From NCBI GenBank assembly GCA_900317845.1, contig ONII01000015.1:1-47457 (forward strand): 47,457 nucleotides of DNA, in the 5' to 3' direction. The notes below the pieces were generated by a model that saw nothing but the letters and a program-made list of their open reading frames with translations, was not told the origin of the DNA and searched no databases. Origin of the DNA: an uncultured Bacteroidales bacterium (GTDB taxonomy: Bacteria > Bacteroidota > Bacteroidia > Bacteroidales > UBA932). A program made the position numbers and the translations under genes. Below are positions 12,787 to 29,748 of this stretch, in pieces (position 1 is the first letter of the stretch; every line of letters begins with the position of its first letter).

Positions 12787-14160
12787 TTACGAGCGGCGCT
12801 CTTCCTTGAGGGTGAGGCCCATGAAGAATATGGCCAGGAGGCAGGCGGCTACCAGCAGGAGGAATGTCCAGCTCCAGCCGAACTGTTGTGCCACCCAGCC
12901 AATCACGGTGTTGGCCAGGATGAACGTGCCCAGGAAGTAGCCGAAGAAGCCGGTAAGGCCGGCGGCTGTTCCGGATGCGTTCTTAGGGGCCAGGTCCAGC
13001 GCCTGTACGCCAATGAGCATCACCGGCCCGTAGATGAAGAAGCCAATGCCGATGAGGCTGATAATCACTACGCTGAGGTTGTCAATGAACACCCAGTACA
13101 GCAGGATGAACACCAGCACCAGCCCCATGAACAGCATGGTGGGCAGGGCCCGCTTCCCATGAAAGAGTTTATCCGACAACCAGCCGCAGAGCAGTGTCCC
13201 CGGAATGGCGGCGAATTCGTAGGCAAAATAGGCCCAGCCGGCACTCTTGAGGTCAATTCCTTTCTCCGTTAGAATAGTGGGTGCCCAGTCCAGGCAGCCG
13301 TATCGGACCATATACACAAACGCGTTGGCCAGGGCGATGTACCAAAGGAACTTGTTGTTGAGCACGTACTGGAAGAAGATTTCCTTGGCGCTCAAGGTTT
13401 CCTCATGCTTTGCGGAGTAGTTCTTGGGGTAGTCGTTGCGCCAGGCTTCCACCGACGGGAGTCCGCAGCTTTGTGGCGTGTCGCGCAACAGCAAATACGC
13501 TAGGATGGCGATAAACAGCGCTACCGCGGCGGGAAAAGCAAACGTGCCGATGAGGAAGTAGAGCTCCGTATGTGCCCCGTAAAACCAGCTGCCGAACCAG
13601 ATGGCACCATAGGTGGCCATGGGGCCTACCAGTGCACCGCCCACATTGTGCGCGCAGTTCCAGATACTCATCATGGTACCCCGCTCATTAGGCGAGAACC
13701 AGTGCGTCATCACGCGGCCGCAAGGAGGCCAGCCCATGCCGTTGAACCAGCCCACCAGGGCGTTGAGCACGCCCATCACCAGGATGGCCAGGGCTTTGTG
13801 TTCCGCGCCGATCAGCTGGATGGGGACAATCATGAAGCACATGGAAATGGCCGTAAGGATGAGCCCCACCGGCAGGAAGACGCGGGCGTTGGAGCGGTCG
13901 GAGACGCTGCCCATCAGGAATTTGGACAGGGCGTATGCTGCAGCGTTCAGGCCCAGAACAAAGCCCAACTCGGTTTTGTCGAAACCCAGCGGCGCCATGG
14001 CCGGGATGGCCATGGACAGGTTTTTTCTCACCAGATAGAATCCGGCGTAGCCAATGAATGCGCCGATGAATACCTGCAGCCGCAGGCGTTTGAATTTGGC
14101 GTCGGCCTCAGGGCCGGTCTGTGCCGGCAGATAGGCCGGCTGTTGCATGAATTTCAGCAT
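12787..14160 (-). CDS. glpT: Glycerol-3-phosphate transporter GlpT (MFS)
   Basis: An inner-membrane antiporter of 457 residues that exchanges glycerol-3-phosphate for inorganic phosphate. It has the organophosphate:Pi antiporter layout: an N-terminal cytoplasmic segment, then GYAGFYLVRKNLSMAIP with the substrate-binding Arg, a loop SDRSNARVFLP, WFNGMGWPPCGRVMTHW, and twelve predicted membrane segments. The family includes UhpT and PgtP, but co-transcription with glpABC favours glycerol-3-phosphate. It is the last gene of the glpABCT operon, 87 bases after glpC, with a repeated hairpin element in the gap. It converges on the SusCD locus. The start at 14160 places about 30 residues before the first membrane helix, which is normal. 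Confidence 0.93.
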   Translation of the reverse strand: MLKFMQQPAYLPAQTGPEADAKFKRLRLQVFIGAFIGYAGFYLVRKNLSMAIPAMAPLGFDKTELGFVLGLNAAAYALSKFLMGSVSDRSNARVFLPVGLILTAISMCFMIVPIQLIGAEHKALAILVMGVLNALVGWFNGMGWPPCGRVMTHWFSPNERGTMMSIWNCAHNVGGALVGPMATYGAIWFGSWFYGAHTELYFLIGTFAFPAAVALFIAILAYLLLRDTPQSCGLPSVEAWRNDYPKNYSAKHEETLSAKEIFFQYVLNNKFLWYIALANAFVYMVRYGCLDWAPTILTEKGIDLKSAGWAYFAYEFAAIPGTLLCGWLSDKLFHGKRALPTMLFMGLVLVFILLYWVFIDNLSVVIISLIGIGFFIYGPVMLIGVQALDLAPKNASGTAAGLTGFFGYFLGTFILANTVIGWVAQQFGWSWTFLLLVAACLLAIFFMGLTLKEERRS

Positions 14161-14187
14161 CTCTCAATACGTATTTTTCATTTCCGA

Positions 14188-14240
14188 GCAGACAAAACTT
14201 TTTCGCTCCCCCTTGTGGGGTAGAAAAAGTTTTCGTCTGC
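14188..14240 (-). repeat. Dispersed hairpin element, copy A (glpC-glpT gap)
   Basis: A palindrome with an outer 6-bp arm (GCAGAC/GTCTGC), one bulged base, an 11-bp arm (AAAACTTTTTC/GAAAAAGTTTT) and an inner CCCC/GGGG pair. It begins 8 bases after the glpC stop. Homologous elements lie at 20328-20383 (opposite orientation) and 20569-20619 (same orientation). It may modulate the glpC-glpT ratio or simply be a REP-like repeat. Confidence 0.85.
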
Positions 14241-14247
14241 GAAGGGG

Positions 14248-15459
14248 TTATTCCAAAGCTTCGGCGAGGATGGATATGGGGTTCATGACGGGATAGCCGG
14301 TGGACATTTCGATCTGCCATTTGCAGGTTTCGCAGTCGCAGGCGACCACCTCCGGATTCACCGCCTTGATTTGTTCGAACAGTGGGGCACCAATGGCCTG
14401 GGAGGCTTCGTAATTCTCCTTTTTGAAGCCATACGTTCCCGACATGCCGCAGCAGTTGGAGGCCAGCATGGTGAACTCCACACCGGGAATCATGCGCAGT
14501 AAACGCTCGGAGAACACCCCCCAGCCCAGTTTTTCCAGGTGACAGGGCGTGTGATAGGCCACCTTTTTGTGATAGTCGGCCCTGAATTTGAGCGTTGCCC
14601 CTTGCTCCAGCTTCTCGTAAATGAAGCGGGTGGCCATGAGCAGCGAGTCCCGTACCGCGGAATTGTCCACCTTGAGCAGTTCCGGATACTCGTCCCGCAT
14701 GGTGAGCGTGCAGGTGGAAGAGGTGGTTACTACCTTGAGCCCCCGGGAGACCGCTTTCCCCAGCACTTCCACATTGTGTTGGGCGTGCTTGGCCGCTTCC
14801 CGCGCCATCCCGTTGGCAATCATGGCGATACCGCAGCATTTTTCATCGTCCAGTAATTGAACGCCCACGCCCAGGGCGTTGAGCACCTTCACCAGGTCCT
14901 TGCCAAGCTGCGGGTAGTTGTAATTCACGTAGCATCCGTGGAAATAGGCCACCTGCTCCGGGAACGCCGCCTGCTCCTTGCTGCGCCGTTTGAGCCAGCC
15001 CTCGAAACTGCGTCCGCTGTATTTGGGGAAGGTTCTCCGGTGGTCTATATCCAAAACCATATCCAGCGTCTTTTTGGTGACACCCAGATCCGTAACGGCA
15101 TTGACGATGGGGGCAAACGGTCGTGCCAGCTTGCCCATGAAGTCCGTGGAAGCCAGCATTTGGTCCCGCAGTTTGGGCGGATGCGTATCGTACTTGATGC
15201 GGGCGCTCTGGATAAGGTCCGCCACCTTTACGCCGGAGGGGCAGGCCACTTCGCAGCGCTTGCAGTTGAGGCAGTACTTGAGCGCATAGTTGAAGAAATA
15301 CGGGTCCTTGAGCCGCAGCCGTTCGCCGTCCGGGCCGGCCTGCTTGGGGCCGGGGTACAAGGGATTCACTTGTAGCACCGGGCAGTAGGCCGTGCACACG
15401 GTGCACTTCATGCACTCCTCGAAGTTATGCGCGCTGGTAGTATATTCTTGTAGTTTCAT
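14248..15459 (-). CDS. glpC: Anaerobic glycerol-3-phosphate dehydrogenase subunit C
   Basis: The Fe-S subunit that passes electrons from the GlpAB dimer to the membrane quinone pool. It has 403 residues, like the E. coli protein. Two 4Fe-4S motifs are visible, Cys16-19-22-26 and Cys63-66-69-73. Two CCG domains follow, with CCGIAMIANG and CCGMSGTYG, the heterodisulfide-reductase-like pattern of GlpC. It starts 2 bases after the glpB stop, so translation is likely coupled. The product has no membrane helix and is expected to be peripheral on the inner membrane. All three subunits are present next to each other, which supports a working anaerobic enzyme. Confidence 0.95.
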   Translation of the reverse strand: MKLQEYTTSAHNFEECMKCTVCTAYCPVLQVNPLYPGPKQAGPDGERLRLKDPYFFNYALKYCLNCKRCEVACPSGVKVADLIQSARIKYDTHPPKLRDQMLASTDFMGKLARPFAPIVNAVTDLGVTKKTLDMVLDIDHRRTFPKYSGRSFEGWLKRRSKEQAAFPEQVAYFHGCYVNYNYPQLGKDLVKVLNALGVGVQLLDDEKCCGIAMIANGMAREAAKHAQHNVEVLGKAVSRGLKVVTTSSTCTLTMRDEYPELLKVDNSAVRDSLLMATRFIYEKLEQGATLKFRADYHKKVAYHTPCHLEKLGWGVFSERLLRMIPGVEFTMLASNCCGMSGTYGFKKENYEASQAIGAPLFEQIKAVNPEVVACDCETCKWQIEMSTGYPVMNPISILAEALE

Positions 15460-15461
15460 CG

Positions 15462-16643
15462 CTAAAGATTCTTCGCTTCGCTCAGAATGACAGGAGTTGC
15501 AGGTTCTTCGTTGTCATTCTGAGTGCAACGAAGAATCTGATCCACTACGGCAAAGGCGCTGTTAATGGCCAGTCCGGCGCCGCTGCCTAGTTCCGGCCGG
15601 GTGTTTCCAAGGATGGAGCCGATGGCATACACATTCTTCAGCGCCACGCCCTCTTTAACAGCATGCAGCTGCGCATCCGTTTTTACGCCATAGCCCATGT
15701 ACGGCTGTTCCTCCGCAAAGGCCGGATTGTACCAGTTGTTGCGGTCTTCCGGATGGTCTACATCCAGGCCCAGGATGGGCTCCGAAATCCGGAACGGATT
15801 GGACCGGAGGCCCTTGGAGAACAGGCCGCCGGTGGCCAGGATGAAGGAATCGGCCTCTAAATAGTGCGCATCCAGATTGTTGGTGGCGATGCTGTGCACC
15901 ACGCCCTCGTGCTCGTGGGCACGGATGGCTTCGTCGCCCATCAGGAAGGTGCCGCCCAGGAGCTGATAGCGCCTTCGCAGCTGAATTTGCGTGCGGATGC
16001 CGGGCACGGACGGAGGCATGGTCCCGGCAAATACCACGCGGGCAGGTAAGGACTGCCGGATGCGTCCCGGTACGGTGGTGTCCGACAGGCCGAATACCTG
16101 CGGCAGCACCACGGTGTCCTCGTCCCGGAGCATGAGCCGAATCTCCTGCACCACCTTCTCCCAAATGCGGTCCATGCTGCGGGCAATCTGCACCGAGCGC
16201 ATTTCTCCGTGCGCTTTGGTGTTGTCCAGATCCGGCAGGCTCAGGAAACGGATGCGGCATTCAATGCCATGTTTTTCCAGGCCTTCCGCCAGGAAGGAGG
16301 AGAAAAAGTCATGGTAGCCCAGGAAATTGACAATGAGCACCCGCCTCGCAATTTTAGCGTTGGGAAAAATGTCGATATCTTCCAGCGAAAGCGCGGCCTT
16401 CTTGAACGTGCCTAAGGGCATCAGGCGCACGCCTTCCCGGTAATGCACGCGGATGCCGGCGGCAGAAAACAGCGCTGCGAGCCGCTCATCAGGTTCTTTC
16501 AGGCTCTCGAATGTCCCGGAGAAAAAGTGCAGGGCGTTCTGGCCCATGGAGACGATGGCGGTGTTTTTCCCCGCTTGCTGCAGGGCAATCCCGGCAATCA
16601 TGCCAGCCAGGCCGCCTCCCATTATAACAGTGTCAAATTTCAT
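15462..16643 (-). CDS. glpB: Anaerobic glycerol-3-phosphate dehydrogenase subunit B
   Basis: A flavoprotein subunit of the anaerobic glycerol-3-phosphate dehydrogenase, 393 residues. The N-terminus has the dinucleotide-binding motif MGGGLAGMIAGIAL (about residues 8-21). Conserved GlpB features include the DAHYLEADSFILATGG and GSGAGLAINSAF segments. The oddity is the C-terminus: the last 25 or so residues, ending in VILSEAKNL, are encoded by a dispersed-type palindromic repeat (15466-15538). The normal end of the protein is therefore probably replaced or extended by repeat-derived sequence. It lies between glpA (62 bases upstream) and glpC (2 bases downstream). Confidence 0.93.
   Translation of the reverse strand: MKFDTVIMGGGLAGMIAGIALQQAGKNTAIVSMGQNALHFFSGTFESLKEPDERLAALFSAAGIRVHYREGVRLMPLGTFKKAALSLEDIDIFPNAKIARRVLIVNFLGYHDFFSSFLAEGLEKHGIECRIRFLSLPDLDNTKAHGEMRSVQIARSMDRIWEKVVQEIRLMLRDEDTVVLPQVFGLSDTTVPGRIRQSLPARVVFAGTMPPSVPGIRTQIQLRRRYQLLGGTFLMGDEAIRAHEHEGVVHSIATNNLDAHYLEADSFILATGGLFSKGLRSNPFRISEPILGLDVDHPEDRNNWYNPAFAEEQPYMGYGVKTDAQLHAVKEGVALKNVYAIGSILGNTRPELGSGAGLAINSAFAVVDQILRCTQNDNEEPATPVILSEAKNL
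15466..15538. repeat. Palindromic repeat forming the glpB 3' end
   Basis: Imperfect inverted repeat with 27-base arms (15466-15492 and 15512-15538) matching at 24 positions, with a 19-base loop. The arms contain AGATTCTTCG and CTCAGAATGACA, the core of a palindrome that recurs between genes in many bacterial genomes. Here it is read in frame and supplies the GlpB tail and stop codon. Confidence 0.88.
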
Positions 16644-16684
16644 TTCATGAAATATAAAATGTTCACGTTACCCCCTCCCGAAAC

Positions 16685-16703
16685 CCCTCCCCTCGGGGGA
16701 GGG
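16685..16703. repeat. GC-rich hairpin between glpA and glpB
   Basis: An 8-bp stem CCCTCCCC/GGGGAGGG with a 3-base loop, 2 bases after the glpA stop. A second CCCCCTCCC lies at 16671-16679. It has no T-tract on the minus strand, so it is more likely an intercistronic RNA-stabilising hairpin or a dispersed repeat than a full terminator. Confidence 0.6.
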
Positions 16704-16705
16704 AC

Positions 16706-18301
16706 TTAAATGCCCAGAACGTGTTTATAAATCCATTGTGTGTATTCTGCTTCGCGGAGGGTGTCCCCCCAGCCGATGGGGAAGTTGCCCTTCCAGCGCT
16801 CCTGCAGGAAGTCCGCCAGGTCTTTCCGTTCCCGCTCCACGCATCCGTGTGCCTTTGCCAGCAGGCCTGCGGCGCGGCAGGCGCAGAATTCCCCCTGACA
16901 GGTGCCCATGCCCACGCGGGTGCGTCTGCGAAGGTCCGTCAGGGTAGAAACGTCCATACGGTCGATGGCGGCATTGATTTCGCCCACCGACACTTCTTCG
17001 CATTCGCAGATGAGGTCATCGTCCCGCCGGTTGGCCGAACGGATGCGGCTGGCACGGGTGCCCATGCGCGATGCGGCGGCCTTCTGGGCCGTGGTAGGGG
17101 ACTCCCACACCTTCTGGGCCACGGCTTCGTACGATTTTTCCTCCGAGCCGGGCAGGGGAGTCTCTGCAGTAGTACAGGCCTTGTTCACCGCCAGTTTCCT
17201 GCATACCAGATCCGTGGCGATTTCCGCCATGAGCCGGTAAGTCATGAGTTTGCCGCCGGTGATGGTGATAAAGCCCTTGAGTCCGTCTCTTTCTTCGTGA
17301 TCCAGGCATACGATGCCGCGGGAAATATTGCGCCCGGAAGGGTCGTCGTCTGCGCTCACGAGCGGACGCACACCGGCATAGGCCCGTAATATGCGTGTTT
17401 CCGAGAGGGAAGGAGCCAGTTTGGCGCCTTCGGTGATGAGGAGGGTGACTTCGTCCGGGGTAACCGCGACGTTGTCGCATTCCTCAAAGGGAATGCGGGT
17501 AGAGGTGGTGCCAATGACGCAAACGGTGTCTCCGGGCACCAGGATATCTGCATTGGAGGGCTTCCGGCAGCGGTTGATGACCATGTTGTTCACGCGGTGT
17601 GCAAAAATGAGCAGGGCTCCCTTGGCAGGGAACATGCCCACCCGCACGCCGGCCAGTTCCGCAATGTGTTGTCCCCAGATGCCGCAGGCGTTAACCGTAA
17701 TGGGGGCATAATAGTCTGTTTCCTCGCCGGTCTGGTGGTTCAGGGTATGCACGCCCTTGATGGTGTTGCCCTCTCGGATGAAGCCGGTGACTTCTGTGTG
17801 CAGACGCACCTGCCCGCCGTGGAGTTTGGCATCCAGCATGTTGGCGGCGCACAGGCGGAACGGATCTACGCTGCCGTCGGGAACCTTCACGGCACCAATC
17901 AGGTCCGGATTCACGCTGGGTTCCAGGCGTTTGGCCAGCTCCGGATCGATAATCTCCGCTCCAATTCCCGCTTTCTTGCAGGCGTCTACGAACGTTTGCT
18001 GATAGCCCAGGTCATCCTCCGGCAGGGTGATGAACAGGCCGTCGGTTTCGTCTATGCAGTGGGCGGCAATCCGGCGCAGAATCATGTTCTCGCGGATGCA
18101 TTCCTCCGCGCTCTCTGCGTCGTTCACGGCGTACCGCGCTCCGGAGTGGAGCAGGCCGTGGTTGCGCCCCGTTGCTCCGGTAGCAATGTCCGAGCGTTCA
18201 ATCAGGAGCGTGCGGAGGCCGCGCATGGCGCAGTCCCGCTGGGTTCCGGCTCCCGTGATGCCGCCGCCGATGATAATCACATCAAATTCGTTGGGATTCA
18301 T
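16706..18301 (-). CDS. glpA: Anaerobic glycerol-3-phosphate dehydrogenase subunit A
   Basis: The catalytic FAD subunit that oxidises sn-glycerol-3-phosphate to dihydroxyacetone phosphate. It has 531 residues. The FAD site IIIGGGITGAGTQRDCAMRG is at about 10-29, and GATGRNHGLLHSGARY follows at about 42-57. The C-terminal part has a BFD-like 2Fe-2S domain with ICECEE and a later CQGEFCACR, as in GlpA but not in aerobic GlpD. It is the first gene of the glpABCT operon. A Bacteroidota promoter with perfect boxes lies at 18324-18355, giving a leader of roughly 16 bases. Confidence 0.96.
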   Translation of the reverse strand: MNPNEFDVIIIGGGITGAGTQRDCAMRGLRTLLIERSDIATGATGRNHGLLHSGARYAVNDAESAEECIRENMILRRIAAHCIDETDGLFITLPEDDLGYQQTFVDACKKAGIGAEIIDPELAKRLEPSVNPDLIGAVKVPDGSVDPFRLCAANMLDAKLHGGQVRLHTEVTGFIREGNTIKGVHTLNHQTGEETDYYAPITVNACGIWGQHIAELAGVRVGMFPAKGALLIFAHRVNNMVINRCRKPSNADILVPGDTVCVIGTTSTRIPFEECDNVAVTPDEVTLLITEGAKLAPSLSETRILRAYAGVRPLVSADDDPSGRNISRGIVCLDHEERDGLKGFITITGGKLMTYRLMAEIATDLVCRKLAVNKACTTAETPLPGSEEKSYEAVAQKVWESPTTAQKAAASRMGTRASRIRSANRRDDDLICECEEVSVGEINAAIDRMDVSTLTDLRRRTRVGMGTCQGEFCACRAAGLLAKAHGCVERERKDLADFLQERWKGNFPIGWGDTLREAEYTQWIYKHVLGI

Positions 18302-18523: not shown

Positions 18524-19621
18524 CTAGGCCATATCGGCGCGAGCCACGGCGTCCTTGTAGTACTTCTGGTCCACGAAGACGTCTTCCTTGTACGGGTTGA
18601 TGTGACGCTTCTTGGAAACGGCGATGATGTAGCAGATGGCCACGCAGTTGGTTACCAGGGCCAGGGCGCTGATGACAATCATCATGGTGGGGTTGGCGGC
18701 CACTACGGAAGGATCCACGGTGGTGCCTACGGTTGCGGCTTCTCCGCCGGCTACTTCATACAACTTGGCGATGGTATCCACCCCTTCCGGATAGAGCACG
18801 GGCAGGGTAGCCCAGCTGAACCACTGCTGACCGTTCTTGAAGGTCTCCTGGAAAAGGGGGAATACCTGTGCGAACATGCACCAGATGGCCAGGGTGTTGG
18901 CGCGGTTCTGGATCCAGCCGCCACGGTTCCAAAGGAGAGCGGCCACGGTAGGGGCGAGCAGAAGGGCGATACCGCAGTACCAGCTGTGCGTAGGCAGGCA
19001 GTTGTAGGTGTAGGCGAAGTTCCAGATGTCGTAGATGAGGATGTACACCCAGGTCATGTCGGCCCAGATCATGTCCTTCTTGTCCTTGGAAGGATACACG
19101 TTCCACCAGGCGGTCATGCACATGATGTTGATAAGACCGGCCACGCCGTTCATCACATTGTGCCAGCCACCGTACTGCCAGACGCCTTCGGAGGTGAGCC
19201 ACCACTTGTTCCAGCCCATCACGGCGCTCTCGAAGTCAGAGACGCAGGCGATGAGGATGTTGATGCCCACAATCACAAACGGGAAGGGTTTGAACCAGTG
19301 CTTGGCACCCACGCCCCATTTGTATTTGATCATCATAAAGCCGATACAGCCGGCGGTGGCGGCATACAGCTTGGCATAGTGGAACCAGCCCTGCATGTAA
19401 ATGTGGGTCTGGTTTTCCAGGGCCCATTGGGCACCGCTGCGGACACCCCACCAGATGGCCAGGAAGTAGGCCGTGAGTGCCAGCGGCACTACCAGGAAGG
19501 TGATGATACCGCCCAACTTGGTGCGACGGGCGAATTCGTTGAGGAGGATGAGGCCCAGCAGGACCACAATCAGCATTCCCCATTGAGAAAGGGCATTAGC
19601 CCCATACACTTGGAAAAACAT
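18524..19621 (-). CDS. DUF5692-like polytopic membrane protein
   Basis: A 365-residue integral membrane protein with about nine hydrophobic segments, rich in Trp and Tyr. Examples are QWGMLIVVLLGLILLNEFA at the N-terminus and NPTMMIVISALALVTNCVAICYIIAV near the C-terminus. The overall pattern is that of the DUF5692 family known from gut anaerobes, which has no established function. It is the last gene of a minus-strand unit with hypA and a 108-residue membrane protein (11-base gap). The soluble tail (KKRHINPYKEDVFVDQKYY) is probably cytoplasmic. A role in nickel handling or as a membrane partner of the upstream flavoprotein is possible only by context. The family name is from memory of its pattern and should be confirmed with a profile. 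Confidence 0.75.
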   Translation of the reverse strand: MFFQVYGANALSQWGMLIVVLLGLILLNEFARRTKLGGIITFLVVPLALTAYFLAIWWGVRSGAQWALENQTHIYMQGWFHYAKLYAATAGCIGFMMIKYKWGVGAKHWFKPFPFVIVGINILIACVSDFESAVMGWNKWWLTSEGVWQYGGWHNVMNGVAGLINIMCMTAWWNVYPSKDKKDMIWADMTWVYILIYDIWNFAYTYNCLPTHSWYCGIALLLAPTVAALLWNRGGWIQNRANTLAIWCMFAQVFPLFQETFKNGQQWFSWATLPVLYPEGVDTIAKLYEVAGGEAATVGTTVDPSVVAANPTMMIVISALALVTNCVAICYIIAVSKKRHINPYKEDVFVDQKYYKDAVARADMA

Positions 19622-19632
19622 AATTTAAGGTT

Positions 19633-19959
19633 TTAGATATAAGATTTAGAATGTGATTTCAGTGCCACCCAAATGCCCCAGGCAGCGGTGAGGGCCAGGG
19701 CCATGGGCACGCCCACGGTGAGGACTTCGCGCCAGAGGATGGCCGCGCCGCCCGTCTGGCCGAGAGACGTAAAGAAGGGGAAGGTCCAGGTGAGTTCCCC
19801 GTTGATGATATGGTCTACGATGAGCATGAGCGTGCCGCCCCAGAGCATTTTCTCCAGGTCCGGCAGATGCTGCAGGTAAGGGGAGTTTCCTTTGAGTCCG
19901 CTTTTGCGGATGGCGGTTACCGCGATGGCTTCCACCAGGGGAGCAATAAAACAAGCCAT
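19633..19959 (-). CDS. Small membrane protein between hypA and DUF5692 gene
   Basis: A 108-residue protein with two or three hydrophobic segments: an N-terminal amphipathic stretch, LWGGTLMLIVDHIIN in the middle and VGVPMALALTAAWGIWVAL at the C-terminus. It starts 4 bases after the hypA stop and ends 11 bases before the DUF5692-like gene, so the three are almost certainly co-translated. I do not recognise the family. A conserved His-containing membrane segment (VDHI) could bind a metal or quinone, but that is speculation. It may be a subunit of a complex with the DUF5692-like protein. Confidence 0.75.
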   Translation of the reverse strand: MACFIAPLVEAIAVTAIRKSGLKGNSPYLQHLPDLEKMLWGGTLMLIVDHIINGELTWTFPFFTSLGQTGGAAILWREVLTVGVPMALALTAAWGIWVALKSHSKSYI

Positions 19960-19963
19960 AATT

Positions 19964-20314
19964 CTAATTGTCAGGTACTTCTATTTCTTTGATTTCTATT
20001 TCGTTGCCCCGCAGGAGGTAGGTATGTTCACTGCCACAGTGCGGGCAAATCTTGCCGTGCGCCACCGTGCCGAATTCCGCATGGCAGTCCTCACAGTATG
20101 TCACGGCCGGAATGGTATTGATTTTTAACTCGGCACCCTTCAGCAATTCCTCCTTGTCCGCAGCCCAGCGCCAGCAGTCCTGCAGGTAGTCCGGAATAAT
20201 GGTGGATACCTCGCCAATATTCATCACTACCCCCGAGACCTTGCTCACAGCATGCTCCAAGGCCGCCTGCTTAACGTCCCGAATAATATAAAACACAATT
20301 CCTAATTCGTGCAT
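19964..20314 (-). CDS. hypA: Hydrogenase/urease nickel incorporation protein HypA
   Basis: A nickel metallochaperone of 116 residues that hands nickel to HypB-assisted maturation of a nickel enzyme. The start at 20314 is chosen over one five codons upstream because HypA needs His as residue 2 for nickel binding, and this start gives MHELG. The zinc-ribbon cysteines are at 74, 77, 90 and 93 (YCEDC and ICPHC). A clear Shine-Dalgarno sequence, GGAGG, lies 8 bases before the ATG, unusual in this window. Directly upstream is hairpin copy B. The gene is separated from hypB by the large flavoprotein gene, and no hydrogenase or urease structural gene is in the window. Confidence 0.93.
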   Translation of the reverse strand: MHELGIVFYIIRDVKQAALEHAVSKVSGVVMNIGEVSTIIPDYLQDCWRWAADKEELLKGAELKINTIPAVTYCEDCHAEFGTVAHGKICPHCGSEHTYLLRGNEIEIKEIEVPDN

Positions 20315-20327
20315 TCCTTTTACCTCC

Positions 20328-20383
20328 ACAGACTAAACTATTTTCTACCCCCAAAAGAGGGGGAGCGAAAATAGTTTGTCTGT
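20328..20383 (+). repeat. Dispersed hairpin element, copy B (hypA leader)
   Basis: Palindrome with outer arms ACAGAC/GTCTGT, middle arms AAACTATTTTC/GAAAATAGTTT and inner CCCCC/GGGGG. It is homologous to copies A and C but lies in the opposite orientation. Its edge touches the GGAGG of hypA, so it would form directly upstream of the ribosome binding site. Confidence 0.85.
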
Positions 20384-20411
20384 TCCGGTATCATTATTAT
20401 TGTAGATTTGT

Positions 20412-20536
20412 AGAAGAGGTATAGGTCCCAAAAACCGTAGCCGCCCATGGCTTCGTGAATGGGAGGGGCCCGCGGCCGCAGGCCGTGGGAGGGATAGGAC
20501 CGAAGGTCCGTAGTTTTTGGAACCTGTACCTCTTCT
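20412..20536. other. 125-bp structured palindrome, possible RNA or MITE-like element
   Basis: Outer arms of 24 bases (20412-20435 and 20513-20536) pair at 22 positions. The interior holds further pairs: CCCAT/ATGGG, GGCC-rich palindromes around GCGGCCGC, two GGGAGGG blocks and GGACC-GAA-GGTCC. No protein is plausible here. It lies in the 346-base gap between the hypA start and the flavoprotein stop, with hairpin copies B and C on its sides. It could be a structured RNA, a decayed miniature transposon or a transcription barrier. Confidence 0.65.
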
Positions 20537-20568
20537 TCATAAATATTTCATTATTAGTTCTTTGTGGA

Positions 20569-20619
20569 GCGGATAAAACTTTTTCGATCCCTTTACGGGT
20601 AGAAAAAGTTTTGATCCGC
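20569..20619 (-). repeat. Dispersed hairpin element, copy C
   Basis: Palindrome with outer arms GCGGAT/ATCCGC, middle arms AAAACTTTTTC/GAAAAAGTTTT and inner CCC/GGG. The middle arms are identical to copy A. It lies about 40 bases downstream of the flavoprotein stop and may serve as its terminator. Its right arm (20603-20621, 19 bases) is repeated exactly at 20642-20660. Confidence 0.85.
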
Positions 20620-20641
20620 GACCTTTTCAAAAAAACTTAGC

Positions 20642-20660
20642 AAAAAGTTTTGATCCGCGA
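20642..20660. repeat. Half copy of element C abutting the flavoprotein stop
   Basis: AAAAAGTTTTGATCCGCGA, an exact 19-base copy of 20603-20621. It ends at the base before the flavoprotein stop codon. It looks like a decayed or partially duplicated element. Confidence 0.8.
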
Positions 20661-23492
20661 CTATTTTTGTTTACTGAACAGGATTTTGCCGGTGCGTTTG
20701 ATCATGTAGGGCAGGATGCCGGAGAATTTGTCCTCAGAGGTGCGCATGACGCTGGCTTCCGGATGGACACGGTGCAGGTGAATGGCATCGAAGCCGCACT
20801 TGGTGGTGCAGATGCCGCAGCCAATGCACTTGTTCTCGTCCACCACCGACGCGCCGCACTTGAGGCAGCGGGCCGTTTCCTTACGGACCTGCTCCTCCGT
20901 GAGCGTGCCGTGATACTCCGCAAACTTGCTCTTGACGGGTACTACGCCCGGATCCTGGCGGGAGCCGTTGTCGTAGCTTTCCACCACAATATCCTGCTTG
21001 TTGAGCTCGATGAAATCCCGCCGGTTGCGGCCGATGGTCATGTGACCGCCCTGCACAAAGCGATGCAGGGACTCCGCAGCCTCCTTGCCGGCGGCAATGG
21101 CGTCAATGGCGAACTTGGGACCGGTGAAGACGTCGCCGCCCACAAAGATGTCCGGTTCCGCCGTCTGGTAGGTGAGTTTGTCCGCAATGGGATACACGCC
21201 GCGGAAAAATTCCACCTTGGTGTCCTTGAGAAGGTCTTTCAGGATAACCGTCTGGCCGATGGCGAAAATCACCAGATCCGCCTCAAGGGAGATGGTCTGC
21301 GATTCGTCGTACTCCGGGGCAAACTTGTGCTCTGCGTTGAATACGGAAGTGCATTTTTTGAAGACGATGCCGCTCACCTTGTCCGTGCCCAGGACCTCCT
21401 TGGGCCCCCAGCCGGGATTGAGCACCACGCCGTCTTCGCGGGCCTCTGTGCGCTCCTCCAGCGAGGCGGGCATAATATCCTCTGTCTCAAGTGATAACAT
21501 AGTCACTTGCGAAGCACCGCTTCGCATGGCAACGCGGGCTGCGTCAATAGCCACATTGCCGCCGCCAACCACTACCACCTTGCCGGAAACGGAAACATTT
21601 CCGCAGTTGGCTTTGTGCAAAAAGTCGATGGCGGTGGTGGTGCCGGACAGCGTTTCTCCGGGGATGCCGGGCAGGCGCCCTCCTTGGCAGCCGATGGCCA
21701 CGTAAAAGCCCTTGTACCCTTGCTCGCGCAGCTGGGCGATGGTGATGTCCTTGCCTACCTCCACGCCGGTGCGAATCTCTACGCCAATCTCGCGCATGAT
21801 GTCAATCTCCGCCTTGATGACGTCCTTCTCCAGCTTATAGGAAGGAATGCCGTAGCGGAGCATGCCGCCCGGCTCCTCATTGCGCTCAAAGACGGTGGGC
21901 TTGTAGCCCATGGTGGCCAGATAATAGGCACAGGAGAGGCCGGCAGGTCCGCCGCCGATGATGGCAATCTTCTGGGGCCAGCGCTCCTCCACGTTGGAGC
22001 AGATGTTTACCTCCGGCACAAAACGCGTTGCCGCATGGAGGTCTTGTTCTGCAATAAATTTCTTTACGGCGTCGATGGCGACAGCCCGGTCGATGGTGCC
22101 GCGCGTGCAGGCGTCTTCGCAGCGCCGGTTGCAGATGCGCCCGCACACCGCCGGGAACGGATTTTCGCGCTTGATGAGCTCAAGCGCCTCCGTGTATTTG
22201 CCCTCCGCAGCCTTCTTCAGGTAGCCCTGGACGGCAATGTGGGCGGGGCAGGCGGTTTTGCAAGGGGATGTACCGGTCTCGTAGCAGTTGATGCGGTTTT
22301 TGTCCCGGTAGTCCTCCGTCCATTTGTGCTCGCCCCAGGCTTTGGCATCCGGAAGCTCGTGCTTGGGATACTGGATGGGACCGTTGTGGGTGCAGAGCTT
22401 CTGGCCCAGTTTGACGGCGCCGGCGGGGCAGTATTCCACACAGCGGCCGCAGGCGACGCAGTTTTCTGTCTGGACCTCCGCCACATAGGCGCTGCGGCTC
22501 ATGTTGGGCGTGTTGAACAGCTGCGAGGTGCGCAGGGCGTTGCAAATCTTGACGTTGCAGTTGCAGATGGCAAAGATTTTTCCTTCACCGTCAATGTTGG
22601 TTACCTGGTGCACAAAGCCGTGGTCTTCCGCCTTCTTGAGGATGGCCATGGCTTCGTCGAAGGTGATGTCGTGGCCACGACCGGTCTCCCGGAGGTAGTC
22701 TGCCATGTCACCCACGCCGATACACCAGTCCCGGTAGTCGTCCGCGCAGCCTTCGTCCAGTTTTTTACGGCCGTAGCGGCAGCTGCAGATGCCTACGCCC
22801 AGGTGCCCTTCATACTTTTTGAGCCAGTAGGAGATGTGTTCGATGTCGACAGACTGGTTCTCCATGGAAATGGCTTTTTCTACGGGAATCACGTGCATGC
22901 CGATTCCGGAGCCGCCCATGGGCACCATAGGGGTGATTTTCTCCAGCGGGAGGAAGGTCATGCGCTCGAAGAACATGGCAAGCTCCGGATGCTTGTCCAT
23001 GAGCTCCACGTTCATGTTGGTGTATTCCGCGCTGCCGGGAACGAACATCGGTACCCAGTAAATGCGGTCCTTGCGCTCAAACGTGGTGCCGGGGTCCGGG
23101 CCCTGGCCATTGGTGTAATGGTCTCCGTAGTCATATTCCAGCATGCCGAAATAGGCCAGTTTGTCCAGCAGGGCATCGAAGTCTGCTTCCGACGAGGCAT
23201 AATGCTTCTGGCGGTTGAGTTCATGGAGCTGGTCCCGGGTCCAGTGCTTGCGCACTTTGAACGGATTGCCGGGAAGCATGTCCAGGAGCAGGTCCAGCGA
23301 GGCTTCGCGGGTGATGGGATCCATCTCGTCCTCGAAGATACAGGCCAGGCCCCAGTACTCCGGTGCCTCCGTGGTCATTTTGATTTTGCCGGGAACGCGG
23401 TCCGTGATGTGGCGGACCAGCTTAATGAGCTTGGGATTGGGGTTTTTGTCACCAAAGTGCTTGGGGACAAACTTTTTGGACATCTCAGGCAT
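20661..23492 (-). CDS. Large Fe-S/FAD oxidoreductase (GltD-like, with ferredoxin domains)
   Basis: A 943-residue soluble electron-transfer protein. Residues 1-230 have no family I can name. Cysteine-rich segments follow: ICSCRYGRKK to DWCIGVG (236-257) and ICNCNVKIC (310-317). A ferredoxin motif, CVACGRCVEYCPAGA, is at 345-359. A GltD-type N-terminal Fe-S domain (about 403-465; CKTACPAHI, CGRICNRRCEDAC) precedes the FAD site GGGPAGLS (513) and the NAD(P) site VVVGGGNVAIDAAR. GGDVFTGPKFAIDAIAAGKEAA closes the flavin domain, and a C-terminal ferredoxin lies at about 876-899 (CIGCGICTTKC). It probably moves electrons between NAD(P)H and a ferredoxin-like partner. It starts 12 bases after hypB, so the two are co-transcribed. 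Its real partner and reaction are unknown. A second Met at residue 4 is an alternative start. Confidence 0.85.
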   Translation of the reverse strand: MPEMSKKFVPKHFGDKNPNPKLIKLVRHITDRVPGKIKMTTEAPEYWGLACIFEDEMDPITREASLDLLLDMLPGNPFKVRKHWTRDQLHELNRQKHYASSEADFDALLDKLAYFGMLEYDYGDHYTNGQGPDPGTTFERKDRIYWVPMFVPGSAEYTNMNVELMDKHPELAMFFERMTFLPLEKITPMVPMGGSGIGMHVIPVEKAISMENQSVDIEHISYWLKKYEGHLGVGICSCRYGRKKLDEGCADDYRDWCIGVGDMADYLRETGRGHDITFDEAMAILKKAEDHGFVHQVTNIDGEGKIFAICNCNVKICNALRTSQLFNTPNMSRSAYVAEVQTENCVACGRCVEYCPAGAVKLGQKLCTHNGPIQYPKHELPDAKAWGEHKWTEDYRDKNRINCYETGTSPCKTACPAHIAVQGYLKKAAEGKYTEALELIKRENPFPAVCGRICNRRCEDACTRGTIDRAVAIDAVKKFIAEQDLHAATRFVPEVNICSNVEERWPQKIAIIGGGPAGLSCAYYLATMGYKPTVFERNEEPGGMLRYGIPSYKLEKDVIKAEIDIMREIGVEIRTGVEVGKDITIAQLREQGYKGFYVAIGCQGGRLPGIPGETLSGTTTAIDFLHKANCGNVSVSGKVVVVGGGNVAIDAARVAMRSGASQVTMLSLETEDIMPASLEERTEAREDGVVLNPGWGPKEVLGTDKVSGIVFKKCTSVFNAEHKFAPEYDESQTISLEADLVIFAIGQTVILKDLLKDTKVEFFRGVYPIADKLTYQTAEPDIFVGGDVFTGPKFAIDAIAAGKEAAESLHRFVQGGHMTIGRNRRDFIELNKQDIVVESYDNGSRQDPGVVPVKSKFAEYHGTLTEEQVRKETARCLKCGASVVDENKCIGCGICTTKCGFDAIHLHRVHPEASVMRTSEDKFSGILPYMIKRTGKILFSKQK

Positions 23493-23504
23493 ATTGAAAT
23501 CTTT

Positions 23505-24179
23505 TTATTGTTGTTTCCAGTCTTTTACGCGCTCCAGCAGCCACCCGGCAAAGGCTTCTACGCCCTCGCCGGTTTTGGCGCAGATAGGAATCACCCGGGC
23601 CTTGGGGTTGCGCATGTGGATGTACTCCTTGCATTTTTCCAGGTCAAAGTCAAAGTAGGGGAGTACGTCCATTTTGTTGATAACCACTACGTCGCAGATG
23701 GAGAACATGAGCGGGTATTTGAGCGGCTTGTCCGTGCCTTCCGGGACGGAGAGAATCATGGCGTTGGCCACGGCGCCGGTGTCGAACTCCGCCGGGCACA
23801 CCAGGTTGCCCACGTTTTCCAGAATGACCAGGTCCAGCTGGTCCATGGGCACGTTGTCCAGGCCCTGGCGCGTCATCTCTGCATCCAGGTGGCACATGCC
23901 GCCGGTGTGCAGCTGGATGGACGCGATGCCGGTGGCTTCCTTGATTTTGATGGCATCTACGTCCGAGTCGATATCGGCCTCCATTACGGCCATGCGAAGC
24001 TTGTCTTTGAGCAGGCCGATGGTTTGGATGAGGGTGGTGGTTTTGCCGCTGCCCGGGGAGGACATGAGGTTCAGGAGAAACACCCCTTGGGCTTTGAGCT
24101 CTTTTCTTAAAAGGGCGGCGTCTTCGTCGTTATTGGCAAAGATGCTCTTTTTGATTTCGATTACTTTTACGGGGTCCAT
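23505..24179 (-). CDS. hypB: Hydrogenase nickel incorporation GTPase HypB
   Basis: A GTPase that drives nickel delivery into the active site of nickel enzymes, with HypA. It has 224 residues from the ATG at 24179. A longer upstream frame is rejected because it runs across the divergent gene and the promoter at 24213-24244. The P-loop SSPGSGKTT is at about 40-48, the metal-binding Cys-His pair is in TGGMCHLD (about 100), ENVGNLVCPAEFD carries the second cysteine site, and VVINKMD is the guanine-specificity motif. There is no His-rich N-terminal tail. It is the first gene of the unit hypB, flavoprotein, (hairpins) hypA, 108-residue membrane protein, DUF5692-like protein. Confidence 0.95.
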   Translation of the reverse strand: MDPVKVIEIKKSIFANNDEDAALLRKELKAQGVFLLNLMSSPGSGKTTTLIQTIGLLKDKLRMAVMEADIDSDVDAIKIKEATGIASIQLHTGGMCHLDAEMTRQGLDNVPMDQLDLVILENVGNLVCPAEFDTGAVANAMILSVPEGTDKPLKYPLMFSICDVVVINKMDVLPYFDFDLEKCKEYIHMRNPKARVIPICAKTGEGVEAFAGWLLERVKDWKQQ

Positions 24180-26691: not shown

Positions 26692-27201
26692 ATGTCAACT
26701 GCAGCCCTTGCCTCCCGGAAGTATTCCTTTGGTAATTATCGGACCTATTTAGCCGCCATTGCCTTTATTGGCGGCAATATCGTGGTCCCTCAGCTATGCC
26801 ATCTTATCCCCAATGGGGGGCTTATGTTCCTTCCCATTTATTTCTTTACGCTGGTCGCGGCGTTCCGCTGTGGCTGGAAAGTAGGTTTACTCACGGCGGT
26901 GCTCTCGCCGGTGGTGAACTGCCTGTTGTTCGGCATGCCGCCCGTGGCTTCGCTGCCTGCTATTCTGGTGAAATCCCTTACCCTGGTTGCCGCGGTGGAG
27001 CTCATCTCCCGCAAAATGGACTTCTCGCTGCTTTCCGTGGCGCTGGCCGTGCTGGCATACCAGCTGGTGGGCATGACGGTGGAATTCTTCATGGACTTCA
27101 ACTTCATGCACGCCATCCAGGATATCCGCATTGGCTGGCCGGGCATCCTCATCCAGATTGTGTGCGGCTACCTGGTCATTAAAGCCCTCCAGCGCAAATG
27201 A
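26692..27201 (+). CDS. ECF transporter S component-like membrane protein
   Basis: A 169-residue protein with five or six membrane segments, the size and layout of ECF S components, which bind vitamins or metal cofactors and dock on a shared energising module. Segments such as FLPIYFFTLVAAFRCGWKVG and LLTAVLSPVVNCLLFGMPP fit the substrate-binding half. It overlaps the next gene by 4 bases (ATGA), and that gene overlaps a TonB-dependent receptor. This suggests a dedicated two-membrane uptake route for one ligand. No ECF ATPase or T component is in the window. The ligand is unknown; the FmdE-like partner points to a metal or metal cofactor. Confidence 0.75.
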   Translation: MSTAALASRKYSFGNYRTYLAAIAFIGGNIVVPQLCHLIPNGGLMFLPIYFFTLVAAFRCGWKVGLLTAVLSPVVNCLLFGMPPVASLPAILVKSLTLVAAVELISRKMDFSLLSVALAVLAYQLVGMTVEFFMDFNFMHAIQDIRIGWPGILIQIVCGYLVIKALQRK

Positions 27202-27743
27202 AAGGCGTCCTGAAGAGCTTTCTTCTGCCTGCAGATTTTTATGCCGATGATGTCCGGGACATTGTCGGCAATTGCATTCAGCGCTACGGGGAGGAAGAAT
27301 GGCGGGCGGTCACGCTCACCAACGAGATTCACGGGCACCTGGGCATTTATTCTACGCTCGGCGCCAAGATGGGCATCCGGGCCCGGGAACTGTTCCGGGA
27401 AAGGGGTGCGGAAGGGGAGATGCAGATTCTGTCTTTTGCCGGAAGCGTGCCTCCCGTCAGCTGCCTGAACGACGGCCTGCAGGTGAGTACCGGCGCCTCC
27501 ATGGGGCACGGACTCTTTGCGGTGTCGGCCCAAAATCCGGTTTCCGTACGGGCACAATTTACTTGTGGTAATGCTTCATTTGAGCTACGGCTAAAGCCTG
27601 AATATGAGGTGCTTATTAGGTCAGATATTGAGAGAGGCGTGGCGCAATTCGGCCACTCTCCGGCCTACTGGAATTATGTCCGGCAGCTGGCGCTTTCCTA
27701 TTGGCGGGACTGGGACCGGACACAACTCTTCGAGGATGCGTAA
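27198..27743 (+). CDS. FmdE-like (formylmethanofuran dehydrogenase subunit E family) protein
   Basis: A 181-residue cytoplasmic protein. The segment TNEIHGHLGIYSTLGAKMG (about 41-59) matches the FmdE start motif FHGHxxxGxxxGxRA. SCLNDGLQVSTGASMGHG (about 93-110) matches the second motif, where most relatives have TGCTxGxGN. Here that Cys is Ala, while the first Cys is kept, so one metal ligand seems lost. The C-terminal zinc ribbon of archaeal FmdE is absent. FmdE-like proteins in Bacteroidota often lie beside metal or cofactor transport genes, and this one is translationally coupled on both sides (4-base and 8-base overlaps). A role in handling an imported metal species is likely but not shown. 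Confidence 0.75.
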   Translation: MKGVLKSFLLPADFYADDVRDIVGNCIQRYGEEEWRAVTLTNEIHGHLGIYSTLGAKMGIRARELFRERGAEGEMQILSFAGSVPPVSCLNDGLQVSTGASMGHGLFAVSAQNPVSVRAQFTCGNASFELRLKPEYEVLIRSDIERGVAQFGHSPAYWNYVRQLALSYWRDWDRTQLFEDA

Positions 27744-29748
27744 GGAAAAGTATACTCTGCTTTTGGCAATGCTGCTCCTGGGGGGGACGGCAGCTGCCCA
27801 GGAACACCGTCAGGATTCCACGGATGTGTTCTATAAACACCTGGAGCTCAAAGAGATAGTGGTTACAGGCCTGGCCGGTGACGCAAAAATGAAGGAAATG
27901 AGCGCGCCTGTATCGGTGGTGCGCCCGGCAGACCTGGCCGCCCGTGCAAGCGGCAATATCATCAGTGCCATAGCGGCGGAACCCGGCGTGAGCGAAATCA
28001 CTACCGGCGGCGGCATTTCCAAACCGGTTATTCGCGGCATGGGCTACAACCGCGTAGTTGTGGTGAGCGACGGCATTCGCCAGGAAGGCCAGCAGTGGGG
28101 CGATGAACATGGCATTGAGGTGGACGGCGCCGGCGTGCATTCCGTAGAAATCCTCAAGGGACCTGCCTCCCTGATGTACGGCTCAGACGCCCTCGCCGGC
28201 ATTATTATCTTCCATCCGGAACCCATCCGGATGCCGGGTACGGCGGGGGGCAGTGTGTCCACGGAATACCAGACGAACAACGGCCTGGCTACTTATTCGC
28301 TTGCCACGGACGGCAACCTGGGCGGCTGGGTTTGGGGCGCCCGTTTCTCGGACAAATACGCCCGTGCCTATAAAAATGCAGGGAACGGCCCTGTGGCCAA
28401 CTCCGGTTTCCGGCAGCGGGCTGCCCAGGCTCTGGTGGGCAAAAACGGCTCCTGGGGCTATTCCAGGCTTCGGCTCAGCTATTTCCACCTTACGCCCGGC
28501 ATGATAGAAGGGGAGGGCGACAACTTTGGCTATACGCCTGCGCTCCCTTTCCAGCAAGTGAGGCACTATAAGGTGGTGTCGGACAATACCGTCCGGCTGC
28601 CGCTGGGAAACCTGAAACTGCTTGTGGGCTGGCAGATGAACCGCCGGCAGGAGTTTGAAGAAAGTCCCGCGGAACCCGGTCTGGACTTCCGCCTAAACAC
28701 CCTCAATTATGATTTCCGCTGGCAGGCCACGCTGGAGCATGGCTGGAAACTGGCTGCGGGCCTGGCCGGCATGGGCCAGAAGAGCGACAACCTGGGCGAT
28801 GAGTACCTCATTCCCGCCTACGGCCTCTTTGACGCCGGTCTCTTTGCCACTGCCACCAAAACGCTGGGCCAGTGGACCCTTTCCGGCGGTATTCGGGCCG
28901 ATCTCCGCTGGCTGCACAGTGAGCCGCTGGAAGGCCGCTTTGAGGCTTTCAGCCGCCGTTTCCCGGGCATCAGCGCCAGCCTGGGCGCTGTGCGTCCGCT
29001 GGGCAAGTATTTTGTTATCCGCGCCAATGTGGCCCGCGGCTTCCGGGCCCCCAACCTGGCTGAACTCGGGTCCAACGGCGAGCATGAGGGCACCTTCCGC
29101 TATGAGTTGGGTAACAAGGACTTAAAGCCGGAATATAGCCTGCAGGGAGACCTGGGCGTAGACTTTACCTCTAAATACATCTCTGTGCAGGCTTCTGCCT
29201 TTGCCAGCCGCATCGACAATTACATTTTTGCAGCGCGTAATGGTGAATGGGCCGATGAAGGCCTGCCGGTGTATGTGTTCCGCAGCGGCCTGGCACAGCT
29301 TTACGGCGGAGAGTTCGGGGTAGATGTGCACCCGCTGCATCAGCTGCACTTGAGCAGCGCGTTTTCCTGTGTCTATGCCAGTGAGGCCGGCGGAGACAAC
29401 CTGCCGCTCATCCCGGCCCCGCGCCTGTTCTCGGAACTCAAGTGGGAAATCAGCCATGGCGGCAAGGTGTTCAACAATGCTTTTGTTGCGCTAAACCTGG
29501 ACTGGAACCTGCGTCAGGACCGTTTCTATGCCAGGGACAATACGGAAACGGCCACGCCGGCCTATCTGCTGCTGGGGGCATCGGCCGGAACGGATGTGGT
29601 CATTAAAGGGAAGACGCGTTTCTCGCTGTACATTATTGGCACCAACCTGACGGATGCGGTGTATGCGCCGCATCTGAGCCGCCTCAAGGATGCCGGTATT
29701 TATAATATGGGTCGAAATCTTACTTTTAAACTGGTGGTGCCTATTTAG
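27736..29748 (+). CDS. TonB-dependent outer membrane receptor
   Basis: A 670-residue TonB-dependent receptor for a small ligand such as a metal chelate or cobalamin-like cofactor. The start at 27736 overlaps the FmdE-like stop by 8 bases and gives a normal signal peptide (LLLAMLLLGGTAAAQ). A longer frame upstream is rejected because it runs through the FmdE-like gene. The TonB-box-like ELKEIVVTG lies at about 39-47, and the plug has ISKPVIRGMGYNRVVVVSDG and LKGPASLMYGSDALAGII. The barrel has RGFRAPNLAELG and YELGNKDLKPE, and the C-terminus is NLTFKLVVPI. It is smaller than SusC and has no SusD partner. It is the outer membrane member of the ECF-S/FmdE trio. Confidence 0.93.
   Translation: MRKEKYTLLLAMLLLGGTAAAQEHRQDSTDVFYKHLELKEIVVTGLAGDAKMKEMSAPVSVVRPADLAARASGNIISAIAAEPGVSEITTGGGISKPVIRGMGYNRVVVVSDGIRQEGQQWGDEHGIEVDGAGVHSVEILKGPASLMYGSDALAGIIIFHPEPIRMPGTAGGSVSTEYQTNNGLATYSLATDGNLGGWVWGARFSDKYARAYKNAGNGPVANSGFRQRAAQALVGKNGSWGYSRLRLSYFHLTPGMIEGEGDNFGYTPALPFQQVRHYKVVSDNTVRLPLGNLKLLVGWQMNRRQEFEESPAEPGLDFRLNTLNYDFRWQATLEHGWKLAAGLAGMGQKSDNLGDEYLIPAYGLFDAGLFATATKTLGQWTLSGGIRADLRWLHSEPLEGRFEAFSRRFPGISASLGAVRPLGKYFVIRANVARGFRAPNLAELGSNGEHEGTFRYELGNKDLKPEYSLQGDLGVDFTSKYISVQASAFASRIDNYIFAARNGEWADEGLPVYVFRSGLAQLYGGEFGVDVHPLHQLHLSSAFSCVYASEAGGDNLPLIPAPRLFSELKWEISHGGKVFNNAFVALNLDWNLRQDRFYARDNTETATPAYLLLGASAGTDVVIKGKTRFSLYIIGTNLTDAVYAPHLSRLKDAGIYNMGRNLTFKLVVPI

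Follow-up and report, generated by a model that had tools for sequence, protein, structure and literature searches.

The DNA analysed here is a window of 47,457 nucleotides (contig ONII01000015.1 of assembly GCA_900317845.1) from an uncultured bacterium of the order Bacteroidales, and its subject is a cassette of five genes at positions 18524-24179 that encodes the nickel chaperones HypB and HypA, a large iron-sulfur (Fe-S) flavoprotein, a small membrane protein and a membrane protein of the DUF5692 family. The arrangement hypB, IsrA-type flavoprotein gene, hypA, (small membrane protein gene) and DUF5692 gene is a conserved unit that roughly half of the genus genomes sampled contain, and NiFe hydrogenase was absent from them. 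The cassette is real and conserved and has already been described in kind as IsrA-type, and the involvement of nickel, the substrate and the role of DUF5692 are putative. We consider it somewhat likelier to be right than wrong that this is a horizontally acquired IsrA-type cassette in which an NAD(P)H-dependent Fe-S flavoprotein, loaded with nickel by HypA and HypB, reduces the C=C bonds of a hydrophobic substrate whose handling it shares with DUF5692.

Gene order, conservation and selection

In the ORF (open reading frame) listing, five intact ORFs lie in the same direction on the minus strand with spacings of 12, 346, 4 and 11 bases, as the original prediction had stated, and this spacing suggests that the five genes are co-transcribed. 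They are hypB (23505-24179), encoding a nickel GTPase metallochaperone of 224 amino acids, the flavoprotein gene (20661-23492), encoding an Fe-S/flavin adenine dinucleotide (FAD)/NAD(P)H oxidoreductase of 943 amino acids, hypA (19964-20314), encoding a nickel chaperone of 116 amino acids, the small membrane protein gene (19633-19959), encoding 108 amino acids, and the DUF5692 gene (18524-19621), encoding an integral membrane protein of 365 amino acids. The source genome comprises 2.4 Mb in 39 contigs and is 97.75% complete.

A GTDB genome scan returned at least 580 confirmed relatives, and the best 80 named loci among them were compared, all of which (80/80) were titled Bacteroidales, Bacteroidia, Bacteroidetes or Paludibacteraceae. 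Since a larger set of 101 loci includes duplicates, linkage rates were calculated from the 80 named loci, restricted to loci whose contig extends far enough on the side in question (76, 70, 64 and 59 of 80, respectively). The hypB gene lay directly upstream of the gene for the flavoprotein in 75 of 76 testable loci, hypA was located downstream in 69 of 70, the gene encoding the 108-residue membrane protein was downstream in 52 of 64, and the DUF5692 gene was linked downstream in 50 of 59. The flanks are variable, and once opposite-strand ORFs overlapping the operon are excluded, other neighbour clusters reach at most 6 of the 80 named loci (7/101 with duplicates).

Purifying selection was observed on every gene, with a median ratio of nonsynonymous to synonymous divergence (dN/dS, from pairs with synonymous differences of 0.1<pS<0.55 only) of 0.14 for hypB, 0.10 for the flavoprotein, 0.16 for hypA, 0.30 for the 108-residue protein, which is fast evolving and encoded by a real gene, and 0.10 for DUF5692. 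The operon is regarded as more than a chance arrangement because the gene set is kept across the genus and all genes are under purifying selection. Conservation reaches well past the source strain in the gene neighbourhoods of the 80 named loci and in 91 genus genomes, and the confinement of the linkage to this strain, which had been named as an outcome that would speak against the original prediction, was not found.

Co-occurrence of the cassette genes and absence of nickel enzymes

Profiles were searched in a sample of 150 relatives, consisting of 91 genomes of the same genus, many of which are incomplete drafts, and 59 genomes of other genera in the order. The N-terminal domain of the flavoprotein was detected in 43 of the 91 genus genomes. 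Over-threshold HypB was also found in 43 genus genomes, comprising 42 of the 43 flavoprotein carriers and one further genome, and DUF5692 in 43, including 39 of the 43 carriers; the co-occurrence with the flavoprotein gave Fisher p values of 1e-23 (HypB) and 1e-16 (DUF5692), which are uncorrected for shared ancestry. Raw counts were kept despite contig breaks, which are the source of several mismatches: G208 was scored as flavoprotein-negative although its contig begins inside that gene (L143), the hypB of G232 (L149) and the DUF5692 gene of G201 (L145) lie at contig ends, and G256 has a fragment at a contig start. Among the 59 genomes of other genera, 18 had over-threshold HypB and 23 a match to the NiFe-hydrogenase family, and the flavoprotein domain gave four weak partial matches only. 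Across 395 genomes sampled from the phylum, the full flavoprotein domain was found in the source genome only.

Matches to the NiFe hydrogenase large subunit (NiFeSe_Hases), urease alpha (PF00449) and NiFe carbon monoxide dehydrogenase (NiFe-CODH, TIGR01702) were absent from the source genome and from all 91 genus genomes (0/91 each), and the source genome also had no match to LarA (PF09861), these four families being the nickel enzymes that were searched. Within the window, the original prediction had noted no hydrogenase, urease or hypCDEF gene, and by reading none was present among the listed ORFs, where those encoding less than 150 amino acids were listed for about 15.5-28 kb, part of the ORFs were scanned against Pfam, and hypCDEF was looked for in the window and not elsewhere in the genome. 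The proposal of a separate nickel-chaperone/redox module without a hydrogenase is upheld, with NiFe hydrogenase in 0 of the 91 genus genomes and no linked hydrogenase structural genes.

The flavoprotein and its relation to IsrA

The flavoprotein contains Pfam domains Fer4_20 (residues 402-485) and Pyr_redox_2 (508-802) and Fer4-type domains at residues 337-359 and 883-904. Residues ~391-815, covering Fer4_20 and the FAD/NAD(P)H module, match NfnA/GltD-type chains in the PDB; the protein differs from these oxidoreductases in its N-terminal 336 residues, which had no Pfam match over the cut-off and no PDB sequence match even at E<=10, and hence have no solved relative by sequence. This N-terminal region carries the candidate catalytic Fe-S (possibly Ni) site, encoded on the minus strand at 22557-22787 and formed by C236xC238, C249, C257 and C310xC312. 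These cysteines and C317 were invariant in 41 genus sequences and in the homologue from Subdoligranulum, and the two CxC motifs (C236/C238 and C310/C312) are 74 residues apart.

The original prediction regarded this gene set as the best candidate for an undescribed system, a view that is not retained since the same linkage is already contained in Kronen et al. 2023 (PMC10134865). IsrA is described there as a putative isoprene reductase of 901 residues. Its operon in Acetobacterium wieringae ISORED-2, an acetogen without NiFe hydrogenase, also codes for two HypA, a HypB and a ferredoxin. Among 988 IsrA homologues, the neighbours included HypA (73%), HypB (56%) and DUF5692 (40%) as well as TetR regulators, and the phyla listed for the clade 9 homologues include Bacteroidetes (PMC10134865). 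Linkage to hypA and hypB without NiFe hydrogenase is a frequent though not a universal trait of such proteins. Among the matches listed for IsrA and DUF5692 in the open-licence PubMed Central literature, only Kronen 2023 and Jin 2022 were relevant.

Architecture, motif spacing and neighbourhood support the assignment of the window protein as an IsrA-type, clade 9-like flavoprotein. In common with the putative isoprene-regulated (isr) operon known from strains ISORED-2 and Y of A. wieringae (Kronen 2023; Jin 2022), the window cassette has a flavoprotein of ~900 residues with Fer4_20, FAD/NAD(P)H and additional [4Fe-4S] domains, an unassigned N-terminal domain (~300 residues) with two CxC motifs 74 residues apart (Cys180/182 and Cys254/256 in IsrA), both hypA and hypB in the operon, and a host without NiFe hydrogenase. 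The differences are the second hypA and the ferredoxin gene of about 350 codons, which are not in the window operon, and the DUF5692 and small membrane protein genes and the Bacteroidales host, which distinguish the window; the window operon is therefore not a complete isr operon. It also resembles the clade 9 homologues that the gene neighbourhood network of Kronen 2023 links to DUF5692, which share the flavoprotein, hypA, hypB and DUF5692, and compared with the neighbourhoods given there it has the extra 108-residue membrane protein between hypA and DUF5692 and could be traced through a Bacteroidales genus represented largely by metagenome-assembled genomes from ruminants. In the 395-genome phylum sample, the CxC region of the flavoprotein is weakly matched by ORFs of 319-361 residues in four other Bacteroidota (L154-L157), and perhaps these are like the isr ferredoxin of ~350 residues.

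HypB, HypA and the origin of the cassette

HypB and HypA bind nickel and hand it on, and their classical clients are hydrogenase and urease. The window HypB matched TIGR00073 with 230.5 bits (cut-off 121.2), and by reading its translation contains the P-loop and the CH...C cysteines of the nickel site, a motif as given in PMC10134865. HypA, which has an MHE start and two CxxC motifs, matched PF01155 with 109.1 bits (cut-off 28.9), but its score for TIGR00100 was 76.3, below the cut-off of 88.1. Relative to the NiFe hydrogenase maturation system (HypABCDEF), the likeness is limited to HypA and HypB: the hydrogenase large subunit was found in 0 of the 91 genus genomes, and hypCDEF genes were not seen in the window by reading.

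The HypB of the window shares 72% identity with that of Subdoligranulum variabile (OY725877.1), 58% with a HypB on a plasmid of Roseburia sp. 831b, where no hypA is annotated within 8 kb, and 38-45% with the HypB of eight genomes of its own order (39% for L169), all eight having a match to the NiFe-hydrogenase family. The identity of 72% to Subdoligranulum vs 38-45% to its own order suggests a transfer from Firmicutes, and the cassette was probably acquired horizontally. In Subdoligranulum variabile (L053) the order is the same, with identities of 72%, 61%, 52% and 55% for HypB, flavoprotein, HypA and DUF5692, respectively; the differences are that no gene for the 108-residue protein was found there, hypA and the DUF5692 gene being ~70 bases apart, and that a GntR/FadR-like regulator gene (by reading of its translation) is located divergently upstream. 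The Firmicutes neighbourhoods were taken from plasmid records, one of which has the flavoprotein, and from PMC10134865.

DUF5692 and the small membrane protein

The DUF5692 protein matched PF18948 with 424.5 bits (cut-off 27). Across seven divergent members, the two most distant of which align uncertainly, 31 columns were invariant, including E29, R32, K84, N121, D129, N158, D183, D188, W200, N201, Y206, Q238 and R240; these columns contain no His and no Cys, and the sole Met is the start. By this pattern DUF5692 would, in our judgement, resemble an enzyme or redox partner more than a nickel permease. No PDB fold match was obtained for its weak structural model at E<=0.001. The 108-residue protein matched no family over the cut-off in Pfam and NCBIfam scans.

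In two genus genomes (G262 and G211), the DUF5692 gene is located on a contig other than that of the cassette, which extends past the expected place without it. A DUF5692 gene was also observed on a plasmid of Latilactobacillus curvatus (L136:9926-10855), near genes for a histidine phosphatase and an azoreductase, and no hyp or IsrA-type gene is annotated in the 20.8 kb around it, so that DUF5692 may work alone. A distant DUF5692-like protein of another Bacteroidales genus (L150:5567-6974) adjoins a TetR-like regulator (by reading), which echoes the TetR neighbours of IsrA homologues reported in PMC10134865.

Proposed mechanism and alternative explanations

The cassette is probably a way to hydrogenate hydrophobic double-bonded molecules and not part of a hydrogenase. 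In the proposed mechanism, HypA and the GTPase HypB would supply nickel at or close to the invariant multi-cysteine site of the flavoprotein's N-terminal domain; FAD would be reduced by NAD(P)H and the electrons would pass via the [4Fe-4S] clusters to this site. There, a double bond of a hydrophobic substrate would be reduced, most likely one of the C=C bonds of a conjugated diene. At the membrane, DUF5692 and the 108-residue protein may accept, pre-process or orient the substrate or tether the reductase, and the gain for the cell may be an electron sink or detoxification of the substrate. This reading is preferred because domain order, length and cysteine spacing match IsrA, and because 42 of the 43 flavoprotein carriers have HypB in a genus with no match to NiFe hydrogenase, urease or NiFe-CODH. 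It also draws on DUF5692, present in 39 of the 43 carriers even where it is not adjacent (G262, G211), on the location of IsrA homologues near HypA, HypB and DUF5692 and the lack of NiFe hydrogenase in ISORED-2 (PMC10134865), and on the HypB identities and the purifying selection on all five genes given above.

Several observations weigh against it. Four flavoprotein carriers had no DUF5692 match (G240, G248, G258 and G259, all drafts), and DUF5692 occurred without the flavoprotein in G285, which also had no HypB match, in G288, as distant matches in G310, G328 and G337, and on the Latilactobacillus curvatus plasmid. LarA-family matches in 24 of the 91 genus genomes (20 over the cut-off) offer another possible nickel enzyme. 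The AlphaFold model of the flavoprotein is too poor to place clusters, with a mean predicted local distance difference test score (pLDDT) of 51 and a predicted template modelling score (pTM) of 0.39, and the DUF5692 model is weak as well (mean pLDDT 63, pTM 0.66). To our knowledge, no IsrA-type protein has been biochemically characterised, and, apart from the correlative proteomics of IsrA, no activity is known to us for any member. The presence of nickel in IsrA is itself putative, and so is the clade 9 membership of the window protein, which rests on architecture, spacing and neighbourhood. No isoprene reduction was seen in Acetobacterium strains that carry other homologues of clade 9 (PMC10134865), therefore the substrate cannot be carried over to the window protein. 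An oleate hydratase gene is a neighbour of the IsrA homologue in A. woodii (PMC10134865), and oleate hydratase was found in 0 of the 91 genus genomes, which counts against a fatty-acid substrate in particular.

Among the alternatives, the flavoprotein might be an electron hub, that is, an Nfn-like NADPH:ferredoxin oxidoreductase or a bifurcating enzyme, with DUF5692 and the small protein as a membrane terminal reductase or ion-coupling partner and a C=C substrate that is not the flavoprotein's own. The match of its C-terminal two thirds to NfnA/GltD-type chains and the invariant charged residues of the membrane protein DUF5692 would fit this, and bifurcation is considered possible by Kronen et al. 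(PMC10134865). However, DUF5692 without the flavoprotein was observed in Latilactobacillus and in other Bacteroidales, and the flavoprotein without a DUF5692 match in 4 of the 43 carriers (drafts); since each occurs without the other, neither seems to need the other obligatorily, and we regard the electron-hub explanation as unlikely.

Less probable still are two explanations that concern nickel supply and transport. HypA and HypB as a supply unit for a nickel enzyme elsewhere, which the original prediction had also considered, would leave the flavoprotein as a bystander; such a role would be in keeping with hydrogenase and urease as the established clients, the LarA-family matches within the genus and a search that covered only four nickel-enzyme families. 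The source genome, however, has no match to NiFe hydrogenase, urease, LarA or NiFe-CODH, the flavoprotein is the constant partner of hypA and hypB, and HypB tracks the flavoprotein (42/43) while LarA-family matches do not, being alike in carriers (13/43) and others (11/48), which makes this explanation quite improbable. Even more doubtful, to the point of being very improbable, is nickel import or export on behalf of the cassette by DUF5692 and the small membrane protein: only the linkage to hypA and hypB favours the transporter role suggested in the original prediction, and suggestive evidence against it comes from the missing invariant His and Cys, the lack of any Met but the start, the absence of a PDB fold match for the weak model, and the presence of DUF5692 without an annotated hyp gene in the stretch viewed in Latilactobacillus.

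Neighbouring genes and the repeat-filled gap

The gap of 346 bases between the isrA-type gene and hypA (20315-20660) consists of palindromic (inverted) and direct repeat elements of about 60 and 130 bases. A further copy of the 60-base type is located at 14186-14245, beside the glp genes, and similar copies of the 130-base type occur in the gaps of some relatives; these elements are probably small mobile repeats of the genus. In 58 of the 73 named loci with hypA the gap was shorter than 50 bases, with a median of 9, and it was longer than that of the window in one, showing that the 346-base gap is not a conserved spacer.

Directly downstream of the cassette and in the same direction, glpA-glpB-glpC-like genes and an MFS gene (GlpT-like, by reading) were observed at 12787-18301, and 3 of the 80 named loci have glpA/glpB as neighbours of the cassette. 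At 26692-29748, an ECF-type substrate component (slightly below the cut-off), an FmdE-domain protein and a TonB receptor are encoded in a row. The glp genes, a holin-like gene and the TonB receptor were rejected as parts of the cassette, being found with it in just 3/80, 4/80 and 1/80 named loci, and in 6/101, 6/101 and 3/101 loci when duplicates are included. A related TonB receptor gene was observed beside or within the cassette in three other loci of the 101-locus set (L033, L036 and one more), and it is possibly an importer that sometimes travels with the cassette. A transposase-like ORF (by reading) is located near the window start (62-1273), and a scan of viral contigs gave no relative.

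Possible role in the rumen and significance

Of the 80 named loci, 66 have a title with a RUG or Tb.RUG label (RUG for rumen uncultured genome) or with mention of a ruminant or a ruminant stomach, and the other 14 were uninformative. In rumen biohydrogenation, linoleate is converted to a conjugated diene and then to a trans-monoene. A role of the cassette in this process is an attractive candidate, and a candidate only. In its specific form, which we rate as a long shot, the cassette would be a biohydrogenation system of uncultured rumen Bacteroidales, with DUF5692 as a cofactor-free membrane linoleate (polyene) isomerase making the conjugated diene and the IsrA-type nickel/Fe-S flavoprotein as the conjugated-linoleate reductase yielding a trans-monoene, for example vaccenate. 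Such a system would be consistent with the selectivity reported for strain Y, in which the dienes isoprene and butadiene are reduced and single C=C bonds are not, the ruminant origin of the majority of named carriers, and the solitary DUF5692 of the lactobacillus. Against a fatty-acid role, no recurring neighbour pointing to fatty acids was seen among neighbours that were not systematically annotated, and the ruminant bias may reflect merely where the genus lives or was sampled. According to PMC4478896, the Butyrivibrio reductase was absent from the databases searched there, though Fukuda et al. 2007 had reported a sequence, and linoleate isomerase is described as membrane-associated in several organisms in PMC13365329.

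The IsrA-type proteins may represent a new class of alkene/diene reductases that depend on nickel. A genus with 43 flavoprotein carriers among 91 genomes and no NiFe hydrogenase, urease or NiFe-CODH match in any of them is a clean setting for roles of HypA and HypB outside hydrogenase, and the cassette provides a concrete gene candidate for the question of which uncultured rumen bacteria, and which enzymes, hydrogenate dietary unsaturated fatty acids.

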